From positions 496,001-560,000 of the forward strand of contig NZ_QNUM01000001.1 in NCBI RefSeq assembly GCF_003574655.1: 64,000 nucleotides of DNA, in the 5' to 3' direction. Source of the DNA: Cohaesibacter haloalkalitolerans (lineage in GTDB: Bacteria; Pseudomonadota; Alphaproteobacteria; Rhizobiales; Cohaesibacteraceae). Positions 41,743 through 60,559 of the stretch are shown in pieces. How positions within the stretch are numbered: position 1 is the stretch's first letter; each line of letters opens with the position of its first letter. Both the position numbers and the translations under genes were made by a program. Below the pieces are notes generated by a model. That model did no database searches. It was not told the origin of the DNA and saw only the letters and a list, made by a program, of their open reading frames with translations.

Positions 41743-41899
41743 AATCATGACGATTGTCCGCGTGTGGGGATGTTGAAGTCATCATCGCAGCGCTGCATTT
41801 GCCACTTGTCATTGCAAAGTTGTGTGTCAAACCGGGCTTGGTTGTTGCTTTTGCCTTGTTTCAATTCCTAAACTTGAAACGGAAAAGGGGAGGCGGGCA

Positions 41900-44800
41900 A
41901 TGACCGAGGAAATCGCGGGAGACGGAATTCTTCAAGTGGCAGAAGGATTTGGAATTGAGGCGGATATCGCGTCCCTTGTCAATTATGCAAGCTGGCAAAA
42001 CTCGGTGCCGGTGGTCTCATCCGTTCGGGTCAGAAACAATCTGACGGAAGCAAAACGGCGGCTGGTTCTCGAGCTTTCCTTTTCTCCTGCCTTTGCCCGG
42101 CCCGTGCGCTGGACTCTGGATCTGGTTGGGGCGAATGAGGTGTTTGCCCTTTCCAACCCTGATCTCGAGATCGACGCTGACTATCTGAATGCCCTTGATG
42201 AGGCCGAGAAGGCCGTGGCACTCTTCAGCCTGAAGGACGGCGAGGGCGCCGTGCTGGCTGAAGTCAGGAAGGAACTCAGGCTGCTGGCGCGCGATGAGTG
42301 GGGTGGTTTTGATGGAATGGGCGGGCTCACGGCGGCGTTCGTCATGCCCAATGACCCGGCGATAGCGCCCATTCTCAAGAAGGCGGGCGATGTCTTGCAA
42401 CGGTTCGGCCATTCGCCCGCGCTGAATGGCTATCAGAGCAAGGACCCGGCGCGTGCCTATATGCTTGCCGCGGCGATCTGGTCGTCTGTTGCTGGTCTGG
42501 GGCTGACCTATGCAGAGCCGCCAAAGAGTTTTGAGCTTTATGGCCAGAAGGTCCGGCGGCCAACCACGATCCGGGAGCAGGGGCTGGCAACCTGCTTTGA
42601 CACGACGCTGCTGTTCGCATCTGCGCTTGAAGCGGTGGGGCTCAATCCGGTTGTGCTTTTGAAGACCGGTCATAGCTACTGCGGTGTCTGGCTGACCGAA
42701 AAGACGCTGCCGTCGCTGGTGGAGCGGGACCCGATCGAGATTCGCAAGGCTCTGGCTGCGCGTGAGCTGATCGTGTTCGAGACAACCGGTGTCACGTCCC
42801 GCCCGGCTGATCCATTCGAGCAGGCCATCGCGATCGGGCAGAGCCATACCAACGAAAAGAATGCGGCCGATTTTGTCGGGGCGATTGATATTGCCCGCTC
42901 GCGTGCCTCGCAAATTCGCCCGATGGCCGCGCATCAGGCCATGGTGTCGACCGGCGAGGAGGGTGAGGGGATCATCGAGGCGGCCGAGCTTCCCTTGCCC
43001 AAGGCGCCCTCGTTTGAAGACCTGTCCGGCCTGATCATCGAAGAAAAGCCAGCGACTGCGCAGGACCGCATTGCCCGTTGGCAGAACAAGCTGCTTGATC
43101 TGTCGCTCAGAAACAGGCTGCTGAATTTCAAGGCGACCAAACAGACCGTCCCTTTCCTTTGCCCGAACGTGCCAGCTCTGGAAGATCTGCTGGCTGACCA
43201 GAACCGGATTCGTGTCATCTCCCTGCCGGAGGAAAACCCGCATGGAGAGCGCAGTGATAGTCTGTTTCAGGAGCAGACCGGACGGGATCTGGATTATGAA
43301 TTTGTCGTGCAGTCGCTTGAGCGCAGGGAGATTGCTGCTACACTGGAAAAGAGCGAGCTGGACAAGCGTCTTACAGAGCTATATCGGCGCGCCAGAAGCG
43401 ATATGACCGAAGGCGGCTCCAATACGCTCTTTCTTGCCGTCGGGTTCCTCCGATGGAAAAAGACGGGAAGCGATGACAGGACCTACAAGGCCCCATTGCT
43501 GCTTATTCCGGTCAAGCTGACAAGGCGAAGCGCCAATGCTCCCTTCTATCTGGAGCATCACGAGGATGAAGTAAAATTCAACTCGACCTTGCTGGAGTTT
43601 CTCAAGAAGGACTTCAATCTTGCCATGCCGGCGTTTGATGAGAGCCTGCCCAAGGACGAGAGCGGCATCGACGTACCGCTGGTCTTTGAGACAATCCGGC
43701 GGGTTGTCCGGGATGTGCCGGGCTTCGAGGTGCTGGATGATATTGCGCTTTCGACCTTCTCCTTTGCCAAGTTCCTGATGTGGAAGGATCTGGTCGACCG
43801 GACCGATGAGTTGCGAAAGAATCGTGTTGTTCGCCACCTGATTGACAATCCCGACAAGGCGTTTGATCCGGGGCTCACGACGGACTTCCCTCAGGTCTTC
43901 GAGCTTGACAGCAAATATCGGCCAGCTGATATCGTCACCCCTCTTCCCGCTGACTCATCCCAGTTGAGTGCCGTCATGGGGGCCGCTGAAGGACGCGACT
44001 TCGTGCTGGTCGGGCCGCCGGGCACCGGCAAGAGCCAGACCATCACCAACATGATTGCCCAATGCCTGGCGACGGGAAAGAGCGTCCTGTTCGTTGCGGA
44101 GAAAACGGCGGCGCTCGGCGTCGTCTATCGGCGGCTCAAGGAACATGGCCTTGGAGATTTCTGTCTTGAACTGCATTCCAACCGGGCGGAAAAGAAGCAG
44201 TTCCTGTCGCAATTACAGACATCCTGGGAAACCAAGACTGATGCCAATCCGAACGAATGGGTGACTATCAATGACCAGTTGCAGGTGCGCCGCGACAGCC
44301 TGAACGACTATGTCTCTGCCCTGCACAAACGGGCGGCATGTGGCCTCAGTGTTTTTGAAGCGCTGGGATTGTCGGTCAAATATGCCGATCAATATACGCC
44401 TCGGCTGGATTGGGACCCTTCCGCAGAAGTGGGAGAGCAATCGCTCCTGCAAATGAAAGAGACAATTCGGGACATCGCCAGCGTGCATCGTCAGGTGATG
44501 CCCGTCCCGGCTCTGGAACTGGTCGGAACCACCGAATGGTCGAACAGATGGGTTGGGGACTTGCGGCAGGCGGCGCAAAGCCTTGCGGTCTCCACGGATG
44601 TGTTGTTGGCGCGCGTGGTCGATTTTGCGCGGCTTGCCGGTCTTGATGCGCAACGGCAATTCTCCCTGTCAGAACTGGAGCATGTGGTCTGGCTCGGGAA
44701 ACTGCTTGACTCGACTGCGGAAAAGACACTGGCTGTGGTTTTCGAGGAGCAGCTGGACAGGATTCGGCAATCTGTTGAAGAATTGGCAGGATGCGTTGAG

Positions 44801-47800
44801 ACTTTCAAGGCTGAACATGCAAGGCTGAGCGCCGTCTACGAGGAAGCCAGTATTGCTCGCATACCGATTGATCAGATTGATCAGGACTGGCGTATGGCCT
44901 GCTCCCGGATGTGGCCGTTCTCCGTTTTTGCCAAAAGCCGGGTGCGGAAGTTTCTTCAGAGCTATGCCTTGAAGGGAAAAGCCAATCCCGCCGAGGAAGT
45001 GGTCCCGCTGCAGAAGATGCAGTCTGCGCTCAAAGCCATGGAGAGCCAGTCCGAAAGGCAGTATTATCCAGCCTGGAACGGAACCGAAACGGATACGGGG
45101 GACCTCAAGGCCTATTTTGATCTGGCGGGCAAGATCAGGGCTGGATTTGAATCCATCGGGTATCTTGGCCATGAGGCCCTGACGAGCAATGGCGCCATGC
45201 AGTCTTGCCTTTCAGGCGGTAGTGCAACCCATCCGCTGCGCCTTCTGGCAAGAGATCTCATTGATGCGTGGGATGACTTCAGCGCCCGACTGGCGGCCTT
45301 TCGCAATGTGGCGAATACCGCTGAGGATCAACTCGAAGGGCCCGCCATCCTGCCGCGACTGCATGACATGCTCGACGCGCTTGAGCAGAATGCAGGTCAG
45401 TTGCAGGTCTGGACCGAGTGGCAGAAGGTCAAGGCCAAAGCCAAGGCACAGGAGCTTTCCGGCTTCCTGAAGGCGGTTGAAGCGGCTCGCATTTCCCATG
45501 ACGATCTGGAATTGAGCTTTTCTGTCGCCTTTGCCAACTGGTGGCTACCCGATGCCATCGACAGATCGGACGTGTTGCGCAGCTTCAAGCGGTTCAGGCA
45601 CGAGGAGATGCTGGAGCAGTTTCGGTTGCTTGATGACGAGGCCAGACGGGTTGCCGCCTCCAAGGTCCGGTCAGCGCTCAATCATCACTTGCCCGCGCCC
45701 CATGAAGTGGCAAAACGGTCCGAGCTTGGTCTGCTGCGCTACCAGATGGAGCTGAAGCGCCCGAGCAAGTCCATTCGCGACATGATCGCTTCCATGCCGA
45801 CCACCTTCAACAAGCTGGCCCCTTGTCTGCTGATGTCGCCGCTGTCGATCGCCCAGTATCTGCCAGCCGGGCAGGCCCTGTTTGATGTGGTCATCTTCGA
45901 TGAGGCCTCGCAAATCACGACATGGGATGCGGTTGGGGCGATTGCCCGAGGCAGGCAGACCATCATTGTCGGCGATCCCAAGCAGTTGCCTCCCACCAAT
46001 TTCTTCGGCCGGAATGATGGCGACGATGACGAAGAGCTTGAAGTCTACGAGAAGGATCTTGAGAGCATTCTGGACGAGGCCATTGCCTCGGGGCTGCCCT
46101 CCAAGCAGTTGAACTGGCATTATCGCAGCCGCAGTGAATCGCTCATCGCCTTTTCTAACTGGCACTATTATGGCAATCGTCTGATCACCTTTCCGTCGCC
46201 TGCGGTCAATGATCAGGCCGTCAAGCTGGTTCACGTTGCCGATGCGGTTTACGACAGGGGCAAGAGCCGCACGAACAGGGATGAAGCGCGCGAGATTGTC
46301 AGGATCGCCGTTGCCAAAATGCAAAGCTGGCTGCAGCTTGCCGAAGAGGATCGGCCCACTCTGGGCGTCATCACGTTCAACCAGCAGCAGCAGAGCCTGA
46401 TACAGGATTTGTTCGATGCCGAGTTGCGTAGCAATCAGGATCTGGAATGGTTCTTCTCGGATGATCGCATTGAACCAGCGATAGTCCGCAATCTGGAAAA
46501 TGTTCAGGGTGACGAACGGGATGTCATGCTGTTCTCGATCACTTTCGGCCCGGATCAGGCTGGCAAGATGTCCATGTCTTTCGGTGCCATCAACAAGGAT
46601 GGCGGAGAGCGGCGGCTCAATGTGGCGGTGACACGCGCCAGAGCCGAACTGCTGGTGGTCAGCACCATCACCGCCGACGTGATCGATACGTCGCGGACAA
46701 GGGCTCTTGGTGTTCAGCATCTGAAAGAATTTCTGGCTTATGCCGAGAAAGGATCTGCCTCCCTTCCCGCAGCGGTCAGCGGATCGGAAGGCGGGTTTGA
46801 CAGCCCGTTTGAGGAGGCGGTCTCGGACGCCCTGCAAGCCAGAGGATGGACCGTCATCCCACAGGTTGGCGTGTCCGGTTTTCGCATTGACCTCGGCATT
46901 GTGCATCCCGACAGGCCGGGAGCCTTCCTTGCTGGCATCGAGTGTGACGGGGCGACCTATCATAGATCGGCCACGGCGCGCGACCGTGACAAGGTGCGCG
47001 AGCAGGTTCTGCGTAATCTCGGCTGGGAAATCCTCCGCATCTGGTCACCGGACTGGTGGTATGATGCATCCAGAGTGGCGGGGGAGATACACCAAAAGCT
47101 TGATGGGCTTGTTGTGGCAAGCAGGGAAGAGGAGAAGCGGAAAAAGGCTGAAGCCCGGAGTGACGGGGCTTTCCCAGCGGCTGATGCGGGAATGGTCGTT
47201 CGGTCCGTGGCTGTAGAGGCGGCAGACCGCGCTGGGGCATCCCTCCTGCCGATGGTGCCATCTTCGAATGACCACCTGCCGGAAGAGCCTGTTGCCGCTC
47301 CTGCCAATCAGAATGAGCCATTTCAAGCTGTTAGAATAGCACAAGGCCCTTCTACGGCCAGCGAAACCTTCTATACCATAACGGACCTGCAATCCTTTGC
47401 GGTCGATCCGGACCGCTTCTATGATGTCGCCTATTCGTCCACGCTTGCCAGCATGATAGACCGGATCGTCGAGACTGAAGGCCCGATCAAGGATACGCTG
47501 CTTGCGCAGCGTGTGACCAAGGCTCATGGCTGGAGCCGAACAGGCAATCGCTTGCGAGAGCATATCTTTGACCACCTGAAGTCTTATGATTTTTCAGAAG
47601 GCACGGCCGGGCGCTTTGTTTGGAAGAGTGGGGCCAGGAAAGACTTGGTGCCCTTCCGTAAATCACTGGACCGCGACAACCGGAGACCGGTGAATGACAT
47701 TTCGCTCGCTGAAATCGCAGGGCTGATCAGGGAAAAGCCCGGCCTTTTGCAACAGGACGAGCCGGTCTATGCGATTGCCCATGAAATGGGATACGACCGT

Positions 47801-47881
47801 GTTGCCAGTGCCATTCAGGCTCGGCTTTGCGAGGCAATTGCCTATTATTCCGACCTGACCGACGTGCAGAAGGGCGTTTGA
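41900..47881 (+). CDS. Giant DUF4011 / SF1 helicase / PD-(D/E)XK nuclease / DUF3320 protein
   Basis: A 1993-residue multidomain protein, probably cytoplasmic. In order: an N-terminal domain (1-130); a transglutaminase-like segment with Cys232 (GLATCFDTT) and His258 (KTGHSYCGVWL); DUF4011 from about 388 (RWQNKLLDLSLRNRLLNF); an AAA_11/AAA_12 SF1 helicase with Walker A GPPGTGKSQT (Lys711), Walker B FDEAS (Asp1334, Glu1335) and motif VI NVAVTRAR (1574-1581); a Vsr/DUF559-like nuclease with Asp1664, Glu1681 and Asp1683 (IECDG); and DUF3320 at about 1835-1895. The start at 41900 has GGGGAGG upstream. Helicase-nuclease proteins of this type are listed as single-gene phage defence candidates (Hhe, as I recall). 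It sits in the accessory zone and has no obvious partner. Confidence 0.9.
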   Translation: MTEEIAGDGILQVAEGFGIEADIASLVNYASWQNSVPVVSSVRVRNNLTEAKRRLVLELSFSPAFARPVRWTLDLVGANEVFALSNPDLEIDADYLNALDEAEKAVALFSLKDGEGAVLAEVRKELRLLARDEWGGFDGMGGLTAAFVMPNDPAIAPILKKAGDVLQRFGHSPALNGYQSKDPARAYMLAAAIWSSVAGLGLTYAEPPKSFELYGQKVRRPTTIREQGLATCFDTTLLFASALEAVGLNPVVLLKTGHSYCGVWLTEKTLPSLVERDPIEIRKALAARELIVFETTGVTSRPADPFEQAIAIGQSHTNEKNAADFVGAIDIARSRASQIRPMAAHQAMVSTGEEGEGIIEAAELPLPKAPSFEDLSGLIIEEKPATAQDRIARWQNKLLDLSLRNRLLNFKATKQTVPFLCPNVPALEDLLADQNRIRVISLPEENPHGERSDSLFQEQTGRDLDYEFVVQSLERREIAATLEKSELDKRLTELYRRARSDMTEGGSNTLFLAVGFLRWKKTGSDDRTYKAPLLLIPVKLTRRSANAPFYLEHHEDEVKFNSTLLEFLKKDFNLAMPAFDESLPKDESGIDVPLVFETIRRVVRDVPGFEVLDDIALSTFSFAKFLMWKDLVDRTDELRKNRVVRHLIDNPDKAFDPGLTTDFPQVFELDSKYRPADIVTPLPADSSQLSAVMGAAEGRDFVLVGPPGTGKSQTITNMIAQCLATGKSVLFVAEKTAALGVVYRRLKEHGLGDFCLELHSNRAEKKQFLSQLQTSWETKTDANPNEWVTINDQLQVRRDSLNDYVSALHKRAACGLSVFEALGLSVKYADQYTPRLDWDPSAEVGEQSLLQMKETIRDIASVHRQVMPVPALELVGTTEWSNRWVGDLRQAAQSLAVSTDVLLARVVDFARLAGLDAQRQFSLSELEHVVWLGKLLDSTAEKTLAVVFEEQLDRIRQSVEELAGCVETFKAEHARLSAVYEEASIARIPIDQIDQDWRMACSRMWPFSVFAKSRVRKFLQSYALKGKANPAEEVVPLQKMQSALKAMESQSERQYYPAWNGTETDTGDLKAYFDLAGKIRAGFESIGYLGHEALTSNGAMQSCLSGGSATHPLRLLARDLIDAWDDFSARLAAFRNVANTAEDQLEGPAILPRLHDMLDALEQNAGQLQVWTEWQKVKAKAKAQELSGFLKAVEAARISHDDLELSFSVAFANWWLPDAIDRSDVLRSFKRFRHEEMLEQFRLLDDEARRVAASKVRSALNHHLPAPHEVAKRSELGLLRYQMELKRPSKSIRDMIASMPTTFNKLAPCLLMSPLSIAQYLPAGQALFDVVIFDEASQITTWDAVGAIARGRQTIIVGDPKQLPPTNFFGRNDGDDDEELEVYEKDLESILDEAIASGLPSKQLNWHYRSRSESLIAFSNWHYYGNRLITFPSPAVNDQAVKLVHVADAVYDRGKSRTNRDEAREIVRIAVAKMQSWLQLAEEDRPTLGVITFNQQQQSLIQDLFDAELRSNQDLEWFFSDDRIEPAIVRNLENVQGDERDVMLFSITFGPDQAGKMSMSFGAINKDGGERRLNVAVTRARAELLVVSTITADVIDTSRTRALGVQHLKEFLAYAEKGSASLPAAVSGSEGGFDSPFEEAVSDALQARGWTVIPQVGVSGFRIDLGIVHPDRPGAFLAGIECDGATYHRSATARDRDKVREQVLRNLGWEILRIWSPDWWYDASRVAGEIHQKLDGLVVASREEEKRKKAEARSDGAFPAADAGMVVRSVAVEAADRAGASLLPMVPSSNDHLPEEPVAAPANQNEPFQAVRIAQGPSTASETFYTITDLQSFAVDPDRFYDVAYSSTLASMIDRIVETEGPIKDTLLAQRVTKAHGWSRTGNRLREHIFDHLKSYDFSEGTAGRFVWKSGARKDLVPFRKSLDRDNRRPVNDISLAEIAGLIREKPGLLQQDEPVYAIAHEMGYDRVASAIQARLCEAIAYYSDLTDVQKGV

Positions 47882-49295: not shown

Positions 49296-52200
49296 TTAGT
49301 TCACCGCGCTGATCGGGAAGTCCAGAACGTTGCTCGAGTTGGGCACCGTCGGGTGCTGTTCACCATTGGTCATCTGAGGCACGCGGCGCGAGGTGTAGCT
49401 GATCAGCTCCTGCACCGACGTATAACCATTCTGGTCGCCAGCGTCTGTGTCCGCCTTGCCAGCGAGGCCTTCCAGCAGAGCTGCAGTGAAGGCACCATGG
49501 CCACCGCCGAAGCTGGCGTCTTCCAGCGACGACTGAGCCCCGGTTGAAGACGCCAGCACGATGGTGCCGGTGCCATCGGACAGGGCCTGCACCGCTTCCT
49601 CGTTGGAGACGCTGCCACGCTTGCGCGGGCCGACCGTGCCGGAATGGCAGATGTCCATCAGGAAGATGGCCTTCTGGTTGATCGGGCGACCGGACAGGAA
49701 GTCACGGAACTTGTCGACCTGCATGCCCGTGTAGGGGCGGGTCTTGTCGCCGTCATAGGTGACGAGATACAGGCGCTGTTCGTTGTCCTGAACCCCGTGG
49801 CCGGCAATGAACAGGACGATGACGTCTTCAGCCGAAGCCTGCCTGAGGAAATCGTTCATCTCGACACGAATATCCCGCTCCGTGGCCTGATCATTGACGA
49901 GGACCTTGGTGTTGACCTTGCCATAGAGCACGCCTTCCTGAGCCTTGAAGGCCTTTTCCAGATCCAGCGCATCCTTGTGGGCGAATTCCAGATCCTGAGA
50001 ACTGATCTCGTATTTCGAGATGCCGACGCCAAAATACCAAAGCTGCGTGGTCTTTCTTACCTTGGACTGGGCCTTTACCTTGCGGTTGATCTCCGCTCGC
50101 TGGGTCAGCACGCGGGCGTCCTTGTAGACGAGACTTGCCTCGATCAGGTTTTCGCCTTCCCGCAGTTTGAACTTGCGGTCGATGCCGACGATTTCGCCGC
50201 CATCATAGACGGGTTCCTCGTCAAAGCCACGAGTGCGGATGACAACGCGCCCGTTGAGCGAATATTCGAACTCCGGATCCGGCAGATCGGCCGAGGATTT
50301 CTCGACCCGCAGGCGCAGGACATATTCGTCGCCGTCGACAGTGGCCTTGGCCGGTGAATCGAGTGAGACCTTGTAGGGTACGTTGAACAGGTCGGGGTCG
50401 ACATCAGGCTTTTCCGGCTCGACCGGCACGGGCTGGTCATTGCCGCTGTTCCCCTTGATCAACCGGCTGAGGCGGTCCTGGATGATGCGCGGACGTTCAA
50501 ACCGGCTCTTGAGGGCTTCAAATGGCAGGTAGTTGTCGCCGAGTGACCAGAATACGCCCTTGGTGCCGTTGAGCGAGGATGTGAATTCTCCGCTCGGAGC
50601 GTAGGCGATCCACTCGTTGTCGTTCTTCACCAACAGGGTCAGCTGCCGCTCGAAGCTGCGCAGATCGAAGTAGATCAGCTCATTCGAACTGGTCAGGGCC
50701 AAAAGGAGGTTGCGGCTTTCATCGGCCGAAATCGAGGCCAGAGTACCGCCGAAGAAGGCCGAACGATCGCCAAGGCGCATCATGTCGCGTGACCATTCGA
50801 TCTTCTGGCCGCTGTCGAGCTTCAGGGTCCAGACCGAGGTGGCCGGTTCCCAGCCGATGTAGCGTCCGGAGCGGGCATCATAGCCACGCCAGCCGCCGCC
50901 AACCTCAAGCATTTCGATGCGTGATGGGTCGTCTTCGTTGAACCTGAGATTATTCAATGGCTTGCCGTTGGTGATGGACTTCACCTCATCGCCCGATTTG
51001 ATGTCGAACAGCCGCGTGACGCGCGAATAGGTGTAGTCATGGCCGTAGCCATCTTTCCAAGCGGTGGTGACGCCGACAAGCCCTTCCTCGTCGCTGATGG
51101 CAACTCCGCTGAAGAAGCTGCCATAGACAGCATCATAGCTGAGGCTTTGGGTGACGATGTCGAACCGGGTGCTGGAGATCACCTGAAGGGACTGGCGGTC
51201 GCGAAGCTCAAGGATGGCCTTGGTGCTCTTGTCGCCCGATCCTTCGGGACGGCCCAGCAACAGGATATACCGGTCGCTCTGGGTCAGATAGGTCACGTCG
51301 AAGTCAATATGTGCCTTCGTCTCTTCCTTGAAGTTATCGGCGTTGAAGACGACGAGATCATTGTTTCTGGAGATGGTGTATTGCGTTGCCCCGTCCTTGC
51401 TGAGGCGGCGCCAGCCACGCTCCGTCGAGGTGCGCAGAGGCTGGAGGCGGCGCCCGGTGGCGAGATCCCAGACGTAACTGCCGCTGCTGTCGCGGGAAGT
51501 GACATAGCCATCACGCGTGTTGAGGGTCAACCCTTTGCCGCGTGGTGAAAGGCCGGTCATCTCGGAGATCGGGCTCAAGCTTCTGGTGTCGTACCATTCG
51601 ATATGCTCGCTGGCACCAGCCGAGAAGCTGTTGCCGTCGGGCGAGAAGGTGATACCCAGATCCTGCGCTGCCTCGCGCGAGTTGATAATGTCGCCTTTTT
51701 CAAGATCGACCAGCACCAGACCGGTCTTGCTGTTGAAGGTGTCGTTCATCAGTACCCACGGTTTGGAGGGATGGCTGACGATGCGGTTTGGGATTACCGG
51801 TGAGCGCATGCGCTTGACCTCGCGCCAGTCGCGGGTATCCCAGATGGCCATAACGCGGCTGTTGTCGATGGCCACCAGATAGCGGCCGTCGCGGGTCTGC
51901 CCCATGCGGTGCGTCCAGTTAACGCCCTCGACATTGCGCTCGAAGGCCAGATCCTTGGCGGAATAGATCTTAACGCCCTGATGCTGGAACTGGCCAACCG
52001 CGATCCGGTCTCCGTCTGCCAGCCAGATGATCGACCCGCCGATCCGCTGGGTGCTCATCCGGGTCACTGCGCGGATCTTGCGCTCGGCGACATTGTAGAT
52101 GCGGACAAAGCCATTGTTGTCGGTGTAGGCCAGTTCGTCGCTGAACGGGCTCCAGCCGAAGCGGGCAATCTCGTTCTCCGCATGAATCTGGCCGACCGCG

Positions 52201-54179
52201 AGCCCGGTCTTGGTATCATAGACATAGAGGACATAGGTTCTTGCGCCTGAAACCTCGCGGTAGTTCGAGGTGGTGGCCAGATAGCGCCCGTTGGGCGAGA
52301 AGGCGCGGGTGGAGCTGCCGCGATAGAGATCGCGGATCTTGACCTGTTGATGCAGATCCCACAGCTGGACCGGCTCGTAACCGACAGCGCCGAGCCGTCC
52401 GTCCGGGGAGGCGGCCAGAGCGGTAGCGTCAAGAGCACTGGTCACGGCGATCTGTGGATCGCTGACGTTGCCGTAAGGCCGGATTTCGACGCGGCGGTTG
52501 CGTTGCCTGCCCGATTCGGTCTCGTTGGTTGCAATCGGTTGGCGTGGGCCATGACCGACGGTGCGCAGACGGCTGGCGGGAATCCCTTGGTGTTCTTCCA
52601 GATAGCGTGCGGCAGCCTCGGCGCGGCGTTGCGACAGCGGCATGTTGATTTCATCGCTGCCGCGGCTGTCGGTGTTGCCCTCGATCAGGAAGACATATTT
52701 CTCCCCGCCGGGCGCATTGAGCACGGCTGCCGCCTTGTCAAGCTCGGGCAGGGTCTCTGGCCGGATGACATCGGAGTTGGTCTCGAACTCGATGGCCAGC
52801 GTCAGGCTGGAGCCGATGTTCGTTTCCCAGTTGCGCAGGAACGGGTTGGCGGCCAGAAAGGCCTTGCGCTCGTTTTCAAGGGCAGCGGCGGCGTTGATGC
52901 GTTCGCGGCGCTGGGAGATCCAGCTTCCGCTGACGTTGGGCATCTTTTCCATTGCAGCCAGATAGGACGCGGCGGCGTCATAATCCTGGGCATAGATGCG
53001 GTTGAGAACGAGATAGCTGGTCACGTCCCGGCGCTGGGCATCGGGGAGCGTATCAAGCTTGGAGAGATAGACATCACGGGCGGCATCAAAACGGCCTATC
53101 TTCTCGTAGAAGGTGCCGTAGTCACGCAGGGAAGTGGCGATATCGGGAGCCAGCTTGGCCAGCTTCAGACTGTCGCGGCTGTATTTCTCTGCCAGATCCG
53201 TATTGAAGGCGAAATTGTAGTTGGCCCAGGCAAGCTGGTTGCGGATTTCCCAGATCTGGGGGAAGTCGCGGGCTGCCTGTTCCAGCAAGCCGTAGCTGCT
53301 GTTGAAATCATAGTTGCCCATTGCAGCAAAGCCGGCGATTGCCGCTTCCGGTGTCGGATCCGTTGCATAGGACGTTTCATAGATGGACAGAGCCTGCTTG
53401 TAAGCCCTGAAACGCTCTTTCATCTGCTCGGCGGCATAATTGAAAGCTGCTGCATTCTTGTATTGCTTGCCAAAGTCGAGAACGTCCCGGATGGCCTTGA
53501 ATTTCTCGTCGTTCGAAGCGCCGGAGCGGTCGAGGCGATCAAGACGCAGATTGCTCAGCCGTTGCAAAACACCGAATTCCGGACGATCACCGGCCTTGAG
53601 CGACTTCTCGAAGAAGGCTTCGGCCTCTCTGCTATTGCCCGCAACCTGGGCTTCGATGCCGCGGACATAGTCGTAGATATAGCGGCGGGACAGGCCCCGG
53701 CTTTCCGATGTTGCAAGGAACTTGTCTGCTCGCGCCTTGTCCTTCAGATTGTCCTTGACGGTGAAATAGATGTTGCGGATGGCGTAAGGATCGACCGGGT
53801 CGATGTCGAGGCATTTCTCATAGGCGGCCACGGCCTCTTCATATCGTTTGGCGTTTGAGAGCTGATAGCCAAGGTTGATCCACGCCGTTGACAGATCCGG
53901 CACAAGGGACGTTGCCTTGCGGTAAAGTCCGATGATCTCGTCATCTCCTGCCCCGTTCCGGTCCGCGGCCCAGGCGCGAGCGAAATAGCCCTCGCCGGTT
54001 TCGGGATAATGCTCTGCCACATAGACGCGGATGGCAGCGCGTTCAAGCAGGCTTGACGTCTTGATGCTGCGTTCGATGAGGTCTCTCCGGTTGATGCCGG
54101 CATAGGGATCGCCACTCTGGGCCATGGCAGGCACTGCGACGGAGAAGAGGAAAAGGGCGAGGGTCAGAAGACGTATCAT
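49296..54179 (-). CDS. Exported TPR / OmpA / beta-propeller / caspase-like protein
   Basis: A 1627-residue protein with a signal peptide (1-20, ending AMA), so it acts in the periplasm or envelope. Order: TPR-like helices (about 25-430); an OmpA-type peptidoglycan-binding domain (about 465-570) with GNTDSRGSDEIN, LSQRRAEAAA and GRQRNRRVEI; a long run of WD40-like strands (about 580-1190) with repeated FSPNGRYLA/SPDGN-type turns; a linker and beta domain (about 1270-1370); and a C-terminal caspase-like (C14) domain with catalytic His1461 (AGHG) and Cys1511 (DICHSG). The dyad is intact. It starts 65 bases after the papain-like gene and is probably its operon partner. Substrate and trigger are unknown. 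Confidence 0.9.
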   Translation of the reverse strand: MIRLLTLALFLFSVAVPAMAQSGDPYAGINRRDLIERSIKTSSLLERAAIRVYVAEHYPETGEGYFARAWAADRNGAGDDEIIGLYRKATSLVPDLSTAWINLGYQLSNAKRYEEAVAAYEKCLDIDPVDPYAIRNIYFTVKDNLKDKARADKFLATSESRGLSRRYIYDYVRGIEAQVAGNSREAEAFFEKSLKAGDRPEFGVLQRLSNLRLDRLDRSGASNDEKFKAIRDVLDFGKQYKNAAAFNYAAEQMKERFRAYKQALSIYETSYATDPTPEAAIAGFAAMGNYDFNSSYGLLEQAARDFPQIWEIRNQLAWANYNFAFNTDLAEKYSRDSLKLAKLAPDIATSLRDYGTFYEKIGRFDAARDVYLSKLDTLPDAQRRDVTSYLVLNRIYAQDYDAAASYLAAMEKMPNVSGSWISQRRERINAAAALENERKAFLAANPFLRNWETNIGSSLTLAIEFETNSDVIRPETLPELDKAAAVLNAPGGEKYVFLIEGNTDSRGSDEINMPLSQRRAEAAARYLEEHQGIPASRLRTVGHGPRQPIATNETESGRQRNRRVEIRPYGNVSDPQIAVTSALDATALAASPDGRLGAVGYEPVQLWDLHQQVKIRDLYRGSSTRAFSPNGRYLATTSNYREVSGARTYVLYVYDTKTGLAVGQIHAENEIARFGWSPFSDELAYTDNNGFVRIYNVAERKIRAVTRMSTQRIGGSIIWLADGDRIAVGQFQHQGVKIYSAKDLAFERNVEGVNWTHRMGQTRDGRYLVAIDNSRVMAIWDTRDWREVKRMRSPVIPNRIVSHPSKPWVLMNDTFNSKTGLVLVDLEKGDIINSREAAQDLGITFSPDGNSFSAGASEHIEWYDTRSLSPISEMTGLSPRGKGLTLNTRDGYVTSRDSSGSYVWDLATGRRLQPLRTSTERGWRRLSKDGATQYTISRNNDLVVFNADNFKEETKAHIDFDVTYLTQSDRYILLLGRPEGSGDKSTKAILELRDRQSLQVISSTRFDIVTQSLSYDAVYGSFFSGVAISDEEGLVGVTTAWKDGYGHDYTYSRVTRLFDIKSGDEVKSITNGKPLNNLRFNEDDPSRIEMLEVGGGWRGYDARSGRYIGWEPATSVWTLKLDSGQKIEWSRDMMRLGDRSAFFGGTLASISADESRNLLLALTSSNELIYFDLRSFERQLTLLVKNDNEWIAYAPSGEFTSSLNGTKGVFWSLGDNYLPFEALKSRFERPRIIQDRLSRLIKGNSGNDQPVPVEPEKPDVDPDLFNVPYKVSLDSPAKATVDGDEYVLRLRVEKSSADLPDPEFEYSLNGRVVIRTRGFDEEPVYDGGEIVGIDRKFKLREGENLIEASLVYKDARVLTQRAEINRKVKAQSKVRKTTQLWYFGVGISKYEISSQDLEFAHKDALDLEKAFKAQEGVLYGKVNTKVLVNDQATERDIRVEMNDFLRQASAEDVIVLFIAGHGVQDNEQRLYLVTYDGDKTRPYTGMQVDKFRDFLSGRPINQKAIFLMDICHSGTVGPRKRGSVSNEEAVQALSDGTGTIVLASSTGAQSSLEDASFGGGHGAFTAALLEGLAGKADTDAGDQNGYTSVQELISYTSRRVPQMTNGEQHPTVPNSSNVLDFPISAVN

Positions 54180-54244
54180 CCGGGGACTTTCCTGTTGAGC
54201 TGACGTCGTGTTGTTGAAAGAGGCAAAAAGAAAGCCGCACCAAA

Positions 54245-55972
54245 TTATGGCGCGACCTGTATCTGGATCGTGCTTTCGGAGCTGTTGCCGTCGGCGTCAA
54301 CTGCAACGATCGTCACCGGATGCGGTTTGCCGTCCTGTGGCAACTCGATCTCGGCCTCGAATGGTCCGCGCGAGGAGAATTTGCTTGTCGCCGCGCCACT
54401 GATGCTGACCCGCTGGATGAGGCTTTCATCCTGTGCAATGCCGCGCAGGCGGAAGACCGGGGTTGCAACGCGGCGGATGGCGTTGGGGTCGACAATTTGC
54501 TCCAGCTCATCGCCTGCTGGTTCGGAGACGACCAGCTTTGGTGCCGTCCTGTCACGGTCGTTGCCAGACGGCGCGACATGATCAATGGCCACCACCACCG
54601 GCACGACCATGCGTCCGTCGCTTGCAGCCTCGAAGGCAATCCCGTTGCCCACGGCCTTGACCTGATCGGGATCGACCATCCGATTGCCGAGGGCGCGGGC
54701 GAGCTTGGCATGAACGTCACCCGAGGCCTTGTTGACATCGGCGACGATGTCTGCAATGGGCAGCGCCTCGCGGGAGAACAACACGACATAGAAATCGGTT
54801 CCGGTGTCGTCATTCATTCGCGTGAAGAAGTCTTCCGACGGTCCGGGCATCAGCATGGCGCCACCGCCGTCGATATGCGGGCTGACGGTGCTGCGGCGCG
54901 GGAATAGTTCAACAAACCGTCCCGACAGATCGCCGCCGAGCGCATAGACGAAGCCGCCGTCATCTGCCGAGATCTCGACCCGGAAGCGGGTGCCGGACGG
55001 ATAGGGGTCGGCAAGGCGATAACCCTTGCCGCCAGACAGGGCGCGCCCGCTCATCGGCTTGCCCGAAATGTGGATGAAGCCGACCTTGCCGCCCATGTCG
55101 ACCACTGCCGGTGGCTTGGGCGGATCGGGCGGGATCATCTCGTAGCCCTGCTGCACAAAGGTATTGAAGTCGCCGTAGGTCACCCACATGAAGCCATCGT
55201 TGCCCCAGTCCTGACCCCAGCTGTTGATCAATTCGAACGCGCCGCCATATTTGGTGTCATCATAGCCGATTACGGCCATGGCATGGCCGCCGAGATCGCC
55301 TTGCGCCAGCATGGATGCATCGGACGGCCCCGGCTTGTAGCGCCCGGAGGAGCGCATGAAGGCTTTGGAAACCATCATGCCGATGACAACGGAGTGGCCG
55401 TTGGCCAGGGCGCGGCGCACAGCAATGTGCTTGGCTGTGGAGTCGGCGTTGAACAGGCGCTGATAGCCCTTGATCCTGTATTGGCTGGCCATGCTTGTCT
55501 GGCGAGCCTGCGGGGTGGCGCTGCATGACTGATCGGTATAGGGAAAATCGGAGAGCGGCAGCACGCCAACAGACGACATCAGGTCCAGTGCTCGCGACGG
55601 CAGAGAGCCATCACTGCAGGAGCCAACCTTGATCTGGTTGTAGATGAACGCCGGGGAAAAAACCGATCGGTTGATTTCAGACCGGTTCTCGACGCCGAGA
55701 CGGTGGGCTTCCGCCAGCGTGCGTGCGGCATAGGCTGTTGCCCAGCCGACGCAACTGCCTTGGTTGCCTTGGTTGCCGGGTGTTGGTGCAAAGCGTTTCA
55801 GCGAAACCGCGGGAGGGAGAGAGCCATATCCGCCGCGTGCCAAAGGCGGTGTTTTGGGCAAGGTCTGGTAGAGTGCGTTATCAAGCATCGCGCCGGTGCT
55901 GTACGGTCCCTGCGCATGGGCAGCAGGAGACAGGGACAGGCCGAGGAGAAAGCAAAATCCAATATAGCGCAC
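54245..55972 (-). CDS. Exported papain-like (C1) cysteine protease with C-terminal accessory domains
   Basis: A 575-residue protein with a signal peptide (about 1-20, ending AHA). The C1 domain (about 50-270) has Cys74 in GNQGSCVGWA, His230 in GGHAMAVIGYDD and Asn250 in INSWGQDWG, so the catalytic triad is complete. No obvious long inhibitory propeptide lies between the signal peptide and Cys74. A beta domain (about 320-400) with RFRVEISADDGGFVYAL and FVELFPR resembles DUF4384, often found with C14 or kinase domains. The last ~90 residues look Ig-like. It lies 65 bases upstream of the caspase-like gene on the same strand. Confidence 0.9.
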   Translation of the reverse strand: MRYIGFCFLLGLSLSPAAHAQGPYSTGAMLDNALYQTLPKTPPLARGGYGSLPPAVSLKRFAPTPGNQGNQGSCVGWATAYAARTLAEAHRLGVENRSEINRSVFSPAFIYNQIKVGSCSDGSLPSRALDLMSSVGVLPLSDFPYTDQSCSATPQARQTSMASQYRIKGYQRLFNADSTAKHIAVRRALANGHSVVIGMMVSKAFMRSSGRYKPGPSDASMLAQGDLGGHAMAVIGYDDTKYGGAFELINSWGQDWGNDGFMWVTYGDFNTFVQQGYEMIPPDPPKPPAVVDMGGKVGFIHISGKPMSGRALSGGKGYRLADPYPSGTRFRVEISADDGGFVYALGGDLSGRFVELFPRRSTVSPHIDGGGAMLMPGPSEDFFTRMNDDTGTDFYVVLFSREALPIADIVADVNKASGDVHAKLARALGNRMVDPDQVKAVGNGIAFEAASDGRMVVPVVVAIDHVAPSGNDRDRTAPKLVVSEPAGDELEQIVDPNAIRRVATPVFRLRGIAQDESLIQRVSISGAATSKFSSRGPFEAEIELPQDGKPHPVTIVAVDADGNSSESTIQIQVAP

Positions 55973-58991: not shown

Positions 58992-59722
58992 ATTGGGGTC
59001 TCGCGAACAGAATTCTTGATCTTACTTTGGACTTGAAATCAGTATTACCCAAGGTTCAGCGTGTGTCAGCCTCATCTTTCTGAAGTTTTTGATGATAGAT
59101 GGATTTCCGGCGTGTCGGGTACTGATGTGGGCCATTCAAATATAATTGATCAGGAGTGTGGAAAAAATTTGTCCAGACAGTGTTTCTGTCGCCTGATTTT
59201 CTGAAAATCTGTGATGTTCGAATATAGGCTAATAAAAATTTCCCCTGCTCCAATGGTTGTCTGGTTTCTTTTTGGGACTTCATGAGGAAGTTCTTAAAAA
59301 ATCATTACCTTGTTGATCACGAGTTATGAGGTTCCAGTTTTCATTGGAGATTTCTTGTTATGCACTGCCAATTTGAATTAAAATGACAGGATCTTGACGA
59401 TTGATGTTTGGAATCTGTTCTTCCAGTGGTCGATATGTGCGGATTTTCTTGCGAGATAGACTGCTGAAATCGTCTCGTGTCTGTCTGCAATGTTTCTGTT
59501 GATGGGTCTGCTCGCTCTTCGAGGGAGACTGTGTGCCTCTCACATGAGGTCTGAGGCAACAGGTCTTCGGGGTCTTCAGATTGCAATGTCGGGAATATTC
59601 GCGCTTTGTGACCCATAAACCGAGCCAACCCACTGCTTTATATGCACTAATTTAGTCTCATACCGGCGCGGGCGGATTGTTGGTAGAATGGGGGTGTGAT
59701 GAGTTCCTTCAGGGAGGTTATT
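58992..59722. other. AT-rich gap with no recognised gene
   Basis: Over 700 bases between divergently read genes. Several short frames exist on the minus strand (for example 59341-59628), but they overlap each other, lack ribosome binding sites and show no protein-like composition. No tRNA or clear hairpin is seen. It must contain the promoters of the antiporter and the stress protein. Confidence 0.45.
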
Positions 59723-60559
59723 ATGGCTATCAGAACGATATTGAGTCTTTGCACGGCCAACACTCCGGATTCCGAGATCAAGATGGTTGCGGGCTTGTGT
59801 GAAGAAACCGGCGCCCATCTATCCCTCATCGTCATTGGCGTCTCTTCCTACCCACCGATCGGTGAATATGCCGATACGACGTTTCTCGTATGGGCAAAGG
59901 AGAGGGACAGTGAAGTTGAGGCTCTTGCCAGGCGGGTTGCCAGCGCCAAGGACATTCTGAGTGCTGAAGGTGTGTCTTTCAACGTGGAGAGCAAGTATCT
60001 GCTTGAAGCAAACATTGACGACGAGGTCGCCTTGCGGGCCTTCTTCTGCGATCTGGTCGTGCTGTCCAATTCGATCATGATCAACCGGGTTGCCTTGCAG
60101 CCGGTGATTGAAGGGGCGGTATTCCGTTCGACACGGCCTGTCCTGATCGTGCCGAAGGATGGCCATCCGACCCTCAAGCCCGACAGCATCATGATTGCCT
60201 GGAATACGGGCGAAGAGGCTGCGCGGGCGATCTATAGCGCAATCGGCCTCATGAAAAATGCCGCCAGCGTGACTGTCCTGATGGTCGATCCGGTTGCCAG
60301 CGCCGATGAAAGCGGCGAGGAGCCCGGGGCCGATCTGGCTGCCTATCTCGTCCGCCACGATGTTTCTGTCAGCGTGGATGTGATCCACAGCGAAGGGCGG
60401 GATCAGGGAGAGCTGATCAAGCAGCATGCTGCCGCCGTGAAGGCGCAAATGATCGTCATGGGGGCCTATGGCCATTCGCGTCTCAGAGAGCGGATCTTTG
60501 GCGGTGTCACGGAAGCCATCATGAAGGACCCGATACTCCCTGTCCTGATGGCCCATTAG
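59723..60559 (+). CDS. Universal stress protein (UspA family), two-domain
   Basis: A 278-residue cytoplasmic protein, long enough for two Usp folds. The C-terminal half has the ATP-binding signature in MGAYGHSRLRE followed by FGGVTE, matching the G-2x-G-9x-G(S/T) pattern of nucleotide-binding Usp proteins. The N-terminal half (ILSLCTANTPDSEIKMVAGL) lacks that signature. The ATG at 59723 has GGGAGG five bases upstream, so an earlier frame from 59696 is not used. It stands alone; its trigger is unknown. Confidence 0.88.
   Translation: MAIRTILSLCTANTPDSEIKMVAGLCEETGAHLSLIVIGVSSYPPIGEYADTTFLVWAKERDSEVEALARRVASAKDILSAEGVSFNVESKYLLEANIDDEVALRAFFCDLVVLSNSIMINRVALQPVIEGAVFRSTRPVLIVPKDGHPTLKPDSIMIAWNTGEEAARAIYSAIGLMKNAASVTVLMVDPVASADESGEEPGADLAAYLVRHDVSVSVDVIHSEGRDQGELIKQHAAAVKAQMIVMGAYGHSRLRERIFGGVTEAIMKDPILPVLMAH

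Follow-up and report, generated by a model that had tools for sequence, protein, structure and literature searches.

The 64,000-nucleotide stretch of Cohaesibacter haloalkalitolerans DNA analysed here (contig NZ_QNUM01000001.1, positions 496,001 to 560,000; the window) carries two adjacent minus-strand genes, one for a papain-like and one for a caspase-like protease, which, as judged by sequence comparison, form a real, conserved, and exported two-protease cassette. The papain gene (54245..55972, GTG start) encodes 575 amino acids and the caspase gene (49296..54179) encodes 1627; both open reading frames (ORFs) were found where the original prediction, made from the letters of the window, had placed them, with 65 bases between them (54180..54244, minus strand). 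At the upstream edge of this gap, at the end of the papain gene and before the caspase gene, lies a terminator-like hairpin (54232-54258) that could act as an attenuator, such sites occurring at chance level. Promoters and terminators at the locus were likewise at chance level, and no RNA element reached gathering scores there.

Domain calls were made with Pfam, with further scans against NCBIfam and PADLOC, and the folds of both proteins were assigned from sequence matches only. The papain begins with a putative Sec-type signal peptide (about residues 1-21; 55910..55972), recognized by eye and by hydropathy, although its value in a 19-residue window (1.16) is exceeded by that of another stretch, at residue 445 (1.45). 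The conserved segment that follows is short (about residues 22-46) and ends at Arg46 (55835..55837), a candidate processing site. The Peptidase_C1 domain (residues 67-268; 55169..55774; E 2.7e-13, above cut-off) holds the complete triad that had been claimed for it, Cys74 (55751-55753), His230 (55283-55285), and Asn250 (55223-55225), and these residues and Gln68 were intact and in order in all 14 papains compared, namely that of the window and 13 proteobacterial orthologues. Cys119 and Cys150 were invariant as well, which is compatible with a disulfide in an oxidising compartment. There is too little sequence ahead of the C1 domain for a long inhibitory propeptide like that of eukaryotic papains. 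Two further regions had been missing from the original prediction: a DUF4384 domain (residues 324-402; 54767..55003; E 2.7e-6), the most informative lead in the analysis, and a putative Ig-like domain at the C-terminus (residues 493-573; 54254..54496), for which the Pfam matches were weak (E 0.03-0.04). The papain had no match in NCBIfam or PADLOC.

The caspase protein also reads as a putative Sec substrate, with a clear 19-residue hydropathy peak at its signal peptide (about residues 1-21; 54117..54179). An 11-residue hydrophobic core near the start was found in 14/14 papains and 14/14 caspase proteins, several longest ORFs starting upstream of it, and this supports the export proposed for both proteins. 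A TPR region (residues ~85-371; 53067..53927) is followed by an OmpA-like peptidoglycan-binding domain (residues 465-562; 52494..52787; E 1.2e-20), a WD40-like β-propeller assigned by sequence matches (residues ~577-952; 51324..52451), and a C-terminal Peptidase C14 (caspase) domain (residues 1385-1616; 49332..50027; E 3.3e-19). In the OmpA-like domain, Asp504 and Arg519, which we take to bind peptidoglycan stem peptides, were conserved in 14/14 proteins, so the tether to peptidoglycan stands as a predicted one. The p20-type dyad, His1461 (49797-49799) and Cys1511 (49647-49649), was kept together with Asp1509 in all 13 caspases that reach the site, the protein of locus L078 running off its contig; the catalytic cysteine is the sole conserved cysteine of the protein. 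NCBIfam gave below-cut-off matches only, among the 25 of 43 matches listed, including a model for EACC1-type caspases (94.7 of 140 bits), and PADLOC returned only generic caspase, OmpA (MotB-/ZorB-type), and TPR models; no PADLOC protein model specific to a known anti-phage defence system matched the pair. With the isolated caspase domain as query, phmmer gave no match among solved structures.

Relatives of the papain were collected by a scan of genome contigs, and the best 80 of 492 were examined, 13 of them proteobacterial and 67 from Bacteroidota loci. In every one of the 13 proteobacterial loci, which come from Stappiaceae, Rhizobiaceae, Rhodobacterales, Halomonas, Idiomarina, and a gammaproteobacterial metagenome-assembled genome, and two of which (L074 and L080) are close copies, the next gene downstream on the same strand encodes a caspase protein of the same architecture (truncated by the contig in L078). 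The intergenic gaps range from -89 to +47 bases when longest-ORF starts are used. Within flanks of up to 10 kb, the papain and caspase genes were the only ones common to all 14 loci, and the next neighbours recurred in 2 or 3 loci; a conserved third gene was therefore rejected. Papain and caspase divergence were closely correlated (r 0.97; 13 loci, L078 dropped), and in a Mantel test 0 of 10,000 permutations gave a value as high. Loss of one of the active sites in most relatives, which had been named as a finding that would speak against the pair, was not observed, the catalytic residues being intact in 14/14 papains and 13/13 caspases. The two-gene arrangement originally proposed is thus borne out by these orthologues.

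Within the genus, the papain was present in 3/18 genomes, that of the window included, and 2/17 congeners keep the pair. In these two (L201 and L202), both genes are full-length, share 95-97% protein identity with those of the window, and are flanked by the same methyltransferase and antiporter genes; in L202, the papain and the antiporter are separated by additional sequence that contains several ORFs. Among the three congeners, the papain has Nei-Gojobori dN/dS ratios of 0.064-0.093 and the caspase has ratios of 0.054-0.082, and both genes are under purifying selection. In another congener (L203, genome G1012), the flanking Na+/H+ antiporter gene is kept among transposase-like genes and the pair is absent there. 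On the far side of the antiporter gene in the window, before a universal stress protein gene, the GC content falls locally to 0.46 (59000-59999).

Beyond the genus, the papain was searched for in an order sample of 297 genomes (own genome included), a class sample, and a phylum sample. Papain matches at E<=1e-10 occurred in seven other genomes of the order sample, all partial; the class sample gave one closer yet partial match (G573), and the phylum sample gave partial matches only. A full-length papain was found in 0/10 congeners of the first sample and in no other of the 297 order genomes, and a system inherited vertically across the order was rejected. A later sample of the genus did give a full-length papain in 2/17 congeners. 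Carriage as phage cargo was also rejected, there being no caspase relative in viral contigs: six such contigs encode related papains without a caspase or OmpA gene in the stretches examined, and 50,697 phage records gave one weak match. One exported-looking papain lacking both partners lies on a predicted viral contig (L206:7905-9155), and papain matches similar to it were seen on Sinorhizobium and Ensifer plasmids.

Wide occurrence of the caspase protein without the papain, which had likewise been named as a possible counterargument, was not found. With two candidates scored per genome, the matches listed at E<=1e-10 for the 296 other genomes of the order included no full-length caspase relative lacking a papain, and the best listed candidates cover the C-terminal or OmpA part only; none was found in the 254 other class genomes (E<=1e-40, two candidates per genome), a sample that overlaps slightly with that of the order, and no relative covering 80% of the protein was found in 72,556 plasmid records.

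Papains of this type were also linked to caspases of other kinds. In 8/67 Bacteroidota loci, all from Flavobacteriaceae, a papain-DUF4384 gene is followed 6-12 bases on by a gene for an exported protein of 937-1346 amino acids with a C-terminal caspase domain. These eight loci share their flanks and so probably represent one vertical lineage; a ninth Flavobacteriaceae locus (L128) has the caspase gene absent. In the four caspase proteins of this group that were scanned, Pfam found the Ig-like Glucodextran_B but not C14, so the caspase call rests on our own C14 profile (E 1e-21 to 5e-18) and on the motifs AGHG and DACFSG, present in 8/8. Their N-terminal repeats look ConA-like by eye, and Pfam gave only a weak DUF1583_N match in one protein. 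In two loci from the class of the window (L047 and L051; trio loci), papain-DUF4384, OmpA, and caspase are encoded by consecutive separate genes; no further complete trio was found in 11 genomes from the order of G573 or in 10 genomes from the family of G245. DUF4384, OmpA, and caspase also occur together without the papain on a Tateyamaria plasmid, and locus L153 holds the same three, with DUF4384 cut by the contig start.

These loci belong to a broader neighbourhood. DUF4384 (PF14326) was found in 25/289 class genomes (own genome and G573 included), and among 25 DUF4384 loci from the other 23 genomes, OmpA lay within 5 kb in 15, C14 in 9, both in 8, and neither in 9. C1 papains without DUF4384, set aside as a different group and used as controls, had OmpA or C14 nearby in 0/13 loci, a small set drawn partly from other genomes. 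The pair in the window carries all three of DUF4384, OmpA, and C14, and can be counted in this neighbourhood. One of ten DUF4384 proteins scanned was a trypsin-C14-DUF4384 fusion (L178). In L178:251-5516 and L180:1-5377, an OmpA gene, a weakly matching C14 gene, and a C14-DUF4384 gene stand in a row, the last of the L178 row being that fusion; L192:1-10710 has in a row four C14-like genes, an OmpA gene, and a gene for a cytochrome c-type protein that matches DUF4384 weakly.

In a papain tree of 85 rows, built by a quick method and with long branches flagged, the 24 caspase-linked and 61 unlinked papains fell on opposite sides of one starred branch. In a C14 tree of 58 rows, the caspases of the proteobacterial pair (100/100), those of Flavobacteriaceae (100/100), and those of the trio loci were found in separate places, each linked group nearer to caspases without a papain. 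Approximately unbiased (AU) tests rejected a single clade of proteobacterial and Flavobacteriaceae caspases (p 0.00097) and one of proteobacterial and trio-type caspases, L152 and L153 included (p 1e-51). The groups had been fixed from linkage beforehand, but the AU tests followed inspection of the tree, and the long branches call for caution with these values. Since the linked caspases form separate lineages, the linkage arose or was rebuilt repeatedly, and the joining of different caspases to related papains argues for a working partnership.

The linked papains share one feature that suggests what such a partnership could be. An arginine lies in the N-terminal segment of 24/24 caspase-linked papains vs 4/61 unlinked ones, and an alignment-free count over roughly the same stretch gave 24/24 vs 5/61. 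In the proteobacterial proteins, the segment between the signal peptide and the catalytic domain ends in P[LM][AST]RG.Y (ALSRGSF in L079); the corresponding motifs are P[LI][VI][TS]RS[YF] in Flavobacteriaceae and TRTF or TRAY in the trio loci, and unlinked papains often have PLADN or PLADD followed by KNP. On the caspase side, an aspartate stands two residues ahead of the catalytic cysteine in 13/13 proteobacterial (DIC) and 8/8 Flavobacteriaceae (DAC) proteins; in the window this is Asp1509, a kept acidic residue that might belong to a pocket for Arg or Lys substrates. The available sections of PMC6426788 describe acidic residues that accommodate basic substrates in this caspase family. Taken together with the arginine of the linked papains, this leads us to propose that the caspase cuts after this residue.

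In the mechanism that we favour, the OmpA domain would hold the caspase protein at the peptidoglycan, while the TPR and propeller regions would most likely bind a ligand or a damaged envelope protein. The signal sensed in this way would trigger the metacaspase-type C14 domain, which should cut after Arg or Lys. After removal of its signal peptide, the papain would start with the conserved segment of about 25 residues that ends at Arg46, and the C14 domain would cut after this residue or release the papain from a complex; once active, the papain, for which DUF4384 would serve as binding module, could degrade envelope or incoming protein targets. That the two proteases are functionally coupled is highly probable. 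For an envelope sensor-caspase that, once triggered, activates a papain which degrades targets, we infer the sensing, the order of cutting, and the targets, and this reading comes near to an even chance; the caspase-first order of the cascade is itself put forward tentatively, as falling somewhat short of probable. The broadest version, an extracytoplasmic zymogen cascade from caspase to papain through one conserved arginine, assembled at least three times from separate caspase lineages with different anchors in Pseudomonadota and Bacteroidota as a branch of a wider DUF4384-OmpA-caspase envelope module, is possible but on balance doubtful.

Several observations weigh against such a cascade. 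In 59/67 Bacteroidota papain loci, there was no C14 match anywhere in the locus examined (at least 1.5 kb downstream covered in 61/67, at least 5 kb in 50/67), and in 2/2 Persicobacter plasmids the papain stands without C14 or OmpA nearby. A Pannonibacter plasmid (L065:8917-12694) encodes a TPR-OmpA-propeller protein, 34% identical to the anchor part of the window's caspase protein, that has no caspase domain, and its gene overlaps a CFI-box-CTERM gene; this counts against activation between the proteases. The original suggestion that one protease may activate the other keeps the standing of a hypothesis. The association with arginine was noticed after the fact and had not been predicted beforehand. 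Arg or Lys, mostly Lys, occurs in the segment of 40/61 unlinked papains, so that only Arg separates the two sets, and because linked and unlinked papains are the two sides of one branch, the difference may be a single inherited change. The correlated divergence of the two genes could reflect joint transfer alone.

The alternative that survives best is parallel action, in which each protease is active by itself, neither activates the other, and the two act together on a common substrate in the envelope or on misfolded envelope proteins. Plausible binding modules for such a role exist in DUF4384, in the propeller and TPR regions, and, for the Flavobacteriaceae caspases, in their long N-terminal parts; the papain is without a long inhibitory propeptide, and the many Bacteroidota papains without a caspase indicate that the papain need not depend on one. 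However, this alternative leaves the arginine difference unexplained and does not strongly account for the one-to-one placing of papains beside caspases of separate lineages, and we regard it as unlikely, though still of appreciable weight.

A cascade running in the opposite direction, in which the caspase is activated by a papain cut in the linker ahead of the C14 domain or within that domain, is clearly improbable. Lacking a long propeptide, the papain might be active first, and a basic stretch, GPR[KR]RG, follows the catalytic cysteine of the caspase in the window, L068, L069, L070, L072, and L075. However, this stretch is absent in L071, L073, L074, L076, L077, L079, and L080, so no conserved cut site is seen in the caspase, and the stretch was rejected as an activation site because it is not conserved. 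Metacaspase-type enzymes, moreover, usually mature by themselves.

Of similarly low probability is a conflict or suicide cassette, in which a periplasmic trigger, such as a phage, a predator, or a contact-delivered protein, unleashes the proteases to kill or protect the cell. Its patchy distribution (3/18 genus genomes), its occurrence in distant orders and a second proteobacterial class among unrelated neighbours, and a nuclease-helicase gene nearby would fit this, as would the caspases with partner peptidases or hydrolases in other conflict systems described in the available part of PMC7159879. The nearby gene (41822-47881, plus strand) encodes 2019 amino acids with DUF4011, a helicase-type AAA domain, an MTES_1575 nuclease domain, and DUF3320, and has the look of a defence-type nuclease-helicase. 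On the other hand, PADLOC matched the pair only with generic models, in two congeners the outer genes on either side of the pair are the same as in the window, and nothing adjacent to it looked like a toxin, immunity, or phage gene, though no systematic search was made. That the two genes are chance neighbours with unrelated roles, as the 59/67 Bacteroidota papains without a caspase might suggest, is very improbable in view of the adjacency in 13/13 proteobacterial loci, the absence of any other neighbour common to all, and the repeated pairing with other caspases.

Bacterial caspases are widespread, but to our knowledge partners or substrates have been identified for few of them. Here, the closely linked exported papain, with its candidate cut site, is a possible substrate open to direct testing. 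The pair would also locate signalling by a caspase in the cell envelope, with peptidoglycan or an invading protein as a conceivable trigger, and the recurrent pairing suggests a function for DUF4384 as the element that second proteases, OmpA anchors, and caspases have in common.

Among solved structures, the best sequence match to the papain is the bacterial C1 peptidase of PDB entry 3ois, presumably xylellain, the title of whose paper reportedly speaks of an intriguing activation mechanism and which is said to have an N-terminal cover of its active site. The 291-residue chain aligns with the C1 part of the papain only and has no DUF4384 match. The original prediction regarded bacterial caspases as usually cytoplasmic, but exported ones seem less unusual than that: the sections of PMC3501461 available assign 98 of 671 sequences to the membrane, most of them with a putative signal peptide, and 30 to the outside. 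They also count OmpA in 14 of 217 metacaspase operons and non-C14 proteolysis domains in 23 of 217. Such operons resemble the window in combining caspase and OmpA, probably in the cell envelope, but they are reported as a count, and neither a papain partner nor DUF4384 is described in that text. No description of an exported papain-caspase pair was found among the passages listed in searches of open-access full texts, and the supplements of PMC3501461 may list single examples.

Other systems share parts of this arrangement. The EACC1-caspase and VMAP caspase systems, the latter with an α/β-hydrolase, likewise consist of few genes, with a caspase-family peptidase and a constant partner (PMC7159879, available part). 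However, EACC1 is a one-helix membrane protein and the 5' gene of the present pair encodes a papain-DUF4384 protein instead, VMAP systems use NTPases, and no exported papain partner is described in that part of the source. The alphaproteobacterial trypsin-caspase-DUF4384 proteins of the QC pseudo-orthocaspase clade (PMC6426788, available sections) also join a second protease, C14, and DUF4384, and the L178 example is immediately preceded by an OmpA gene and a C14 gene whose match is weak. They differ in having a serine protease, a single fusion, and a dyad reported as altered (QC), whereas in the window a papain and a caspase with an unaltered dyad are encoded separately. Since published work already covers caspase-OmpA operons and trypsin-caspase-DUF4384 proteins, the pair is best described as a variant of caspase-partner systems rather than as wholly new.

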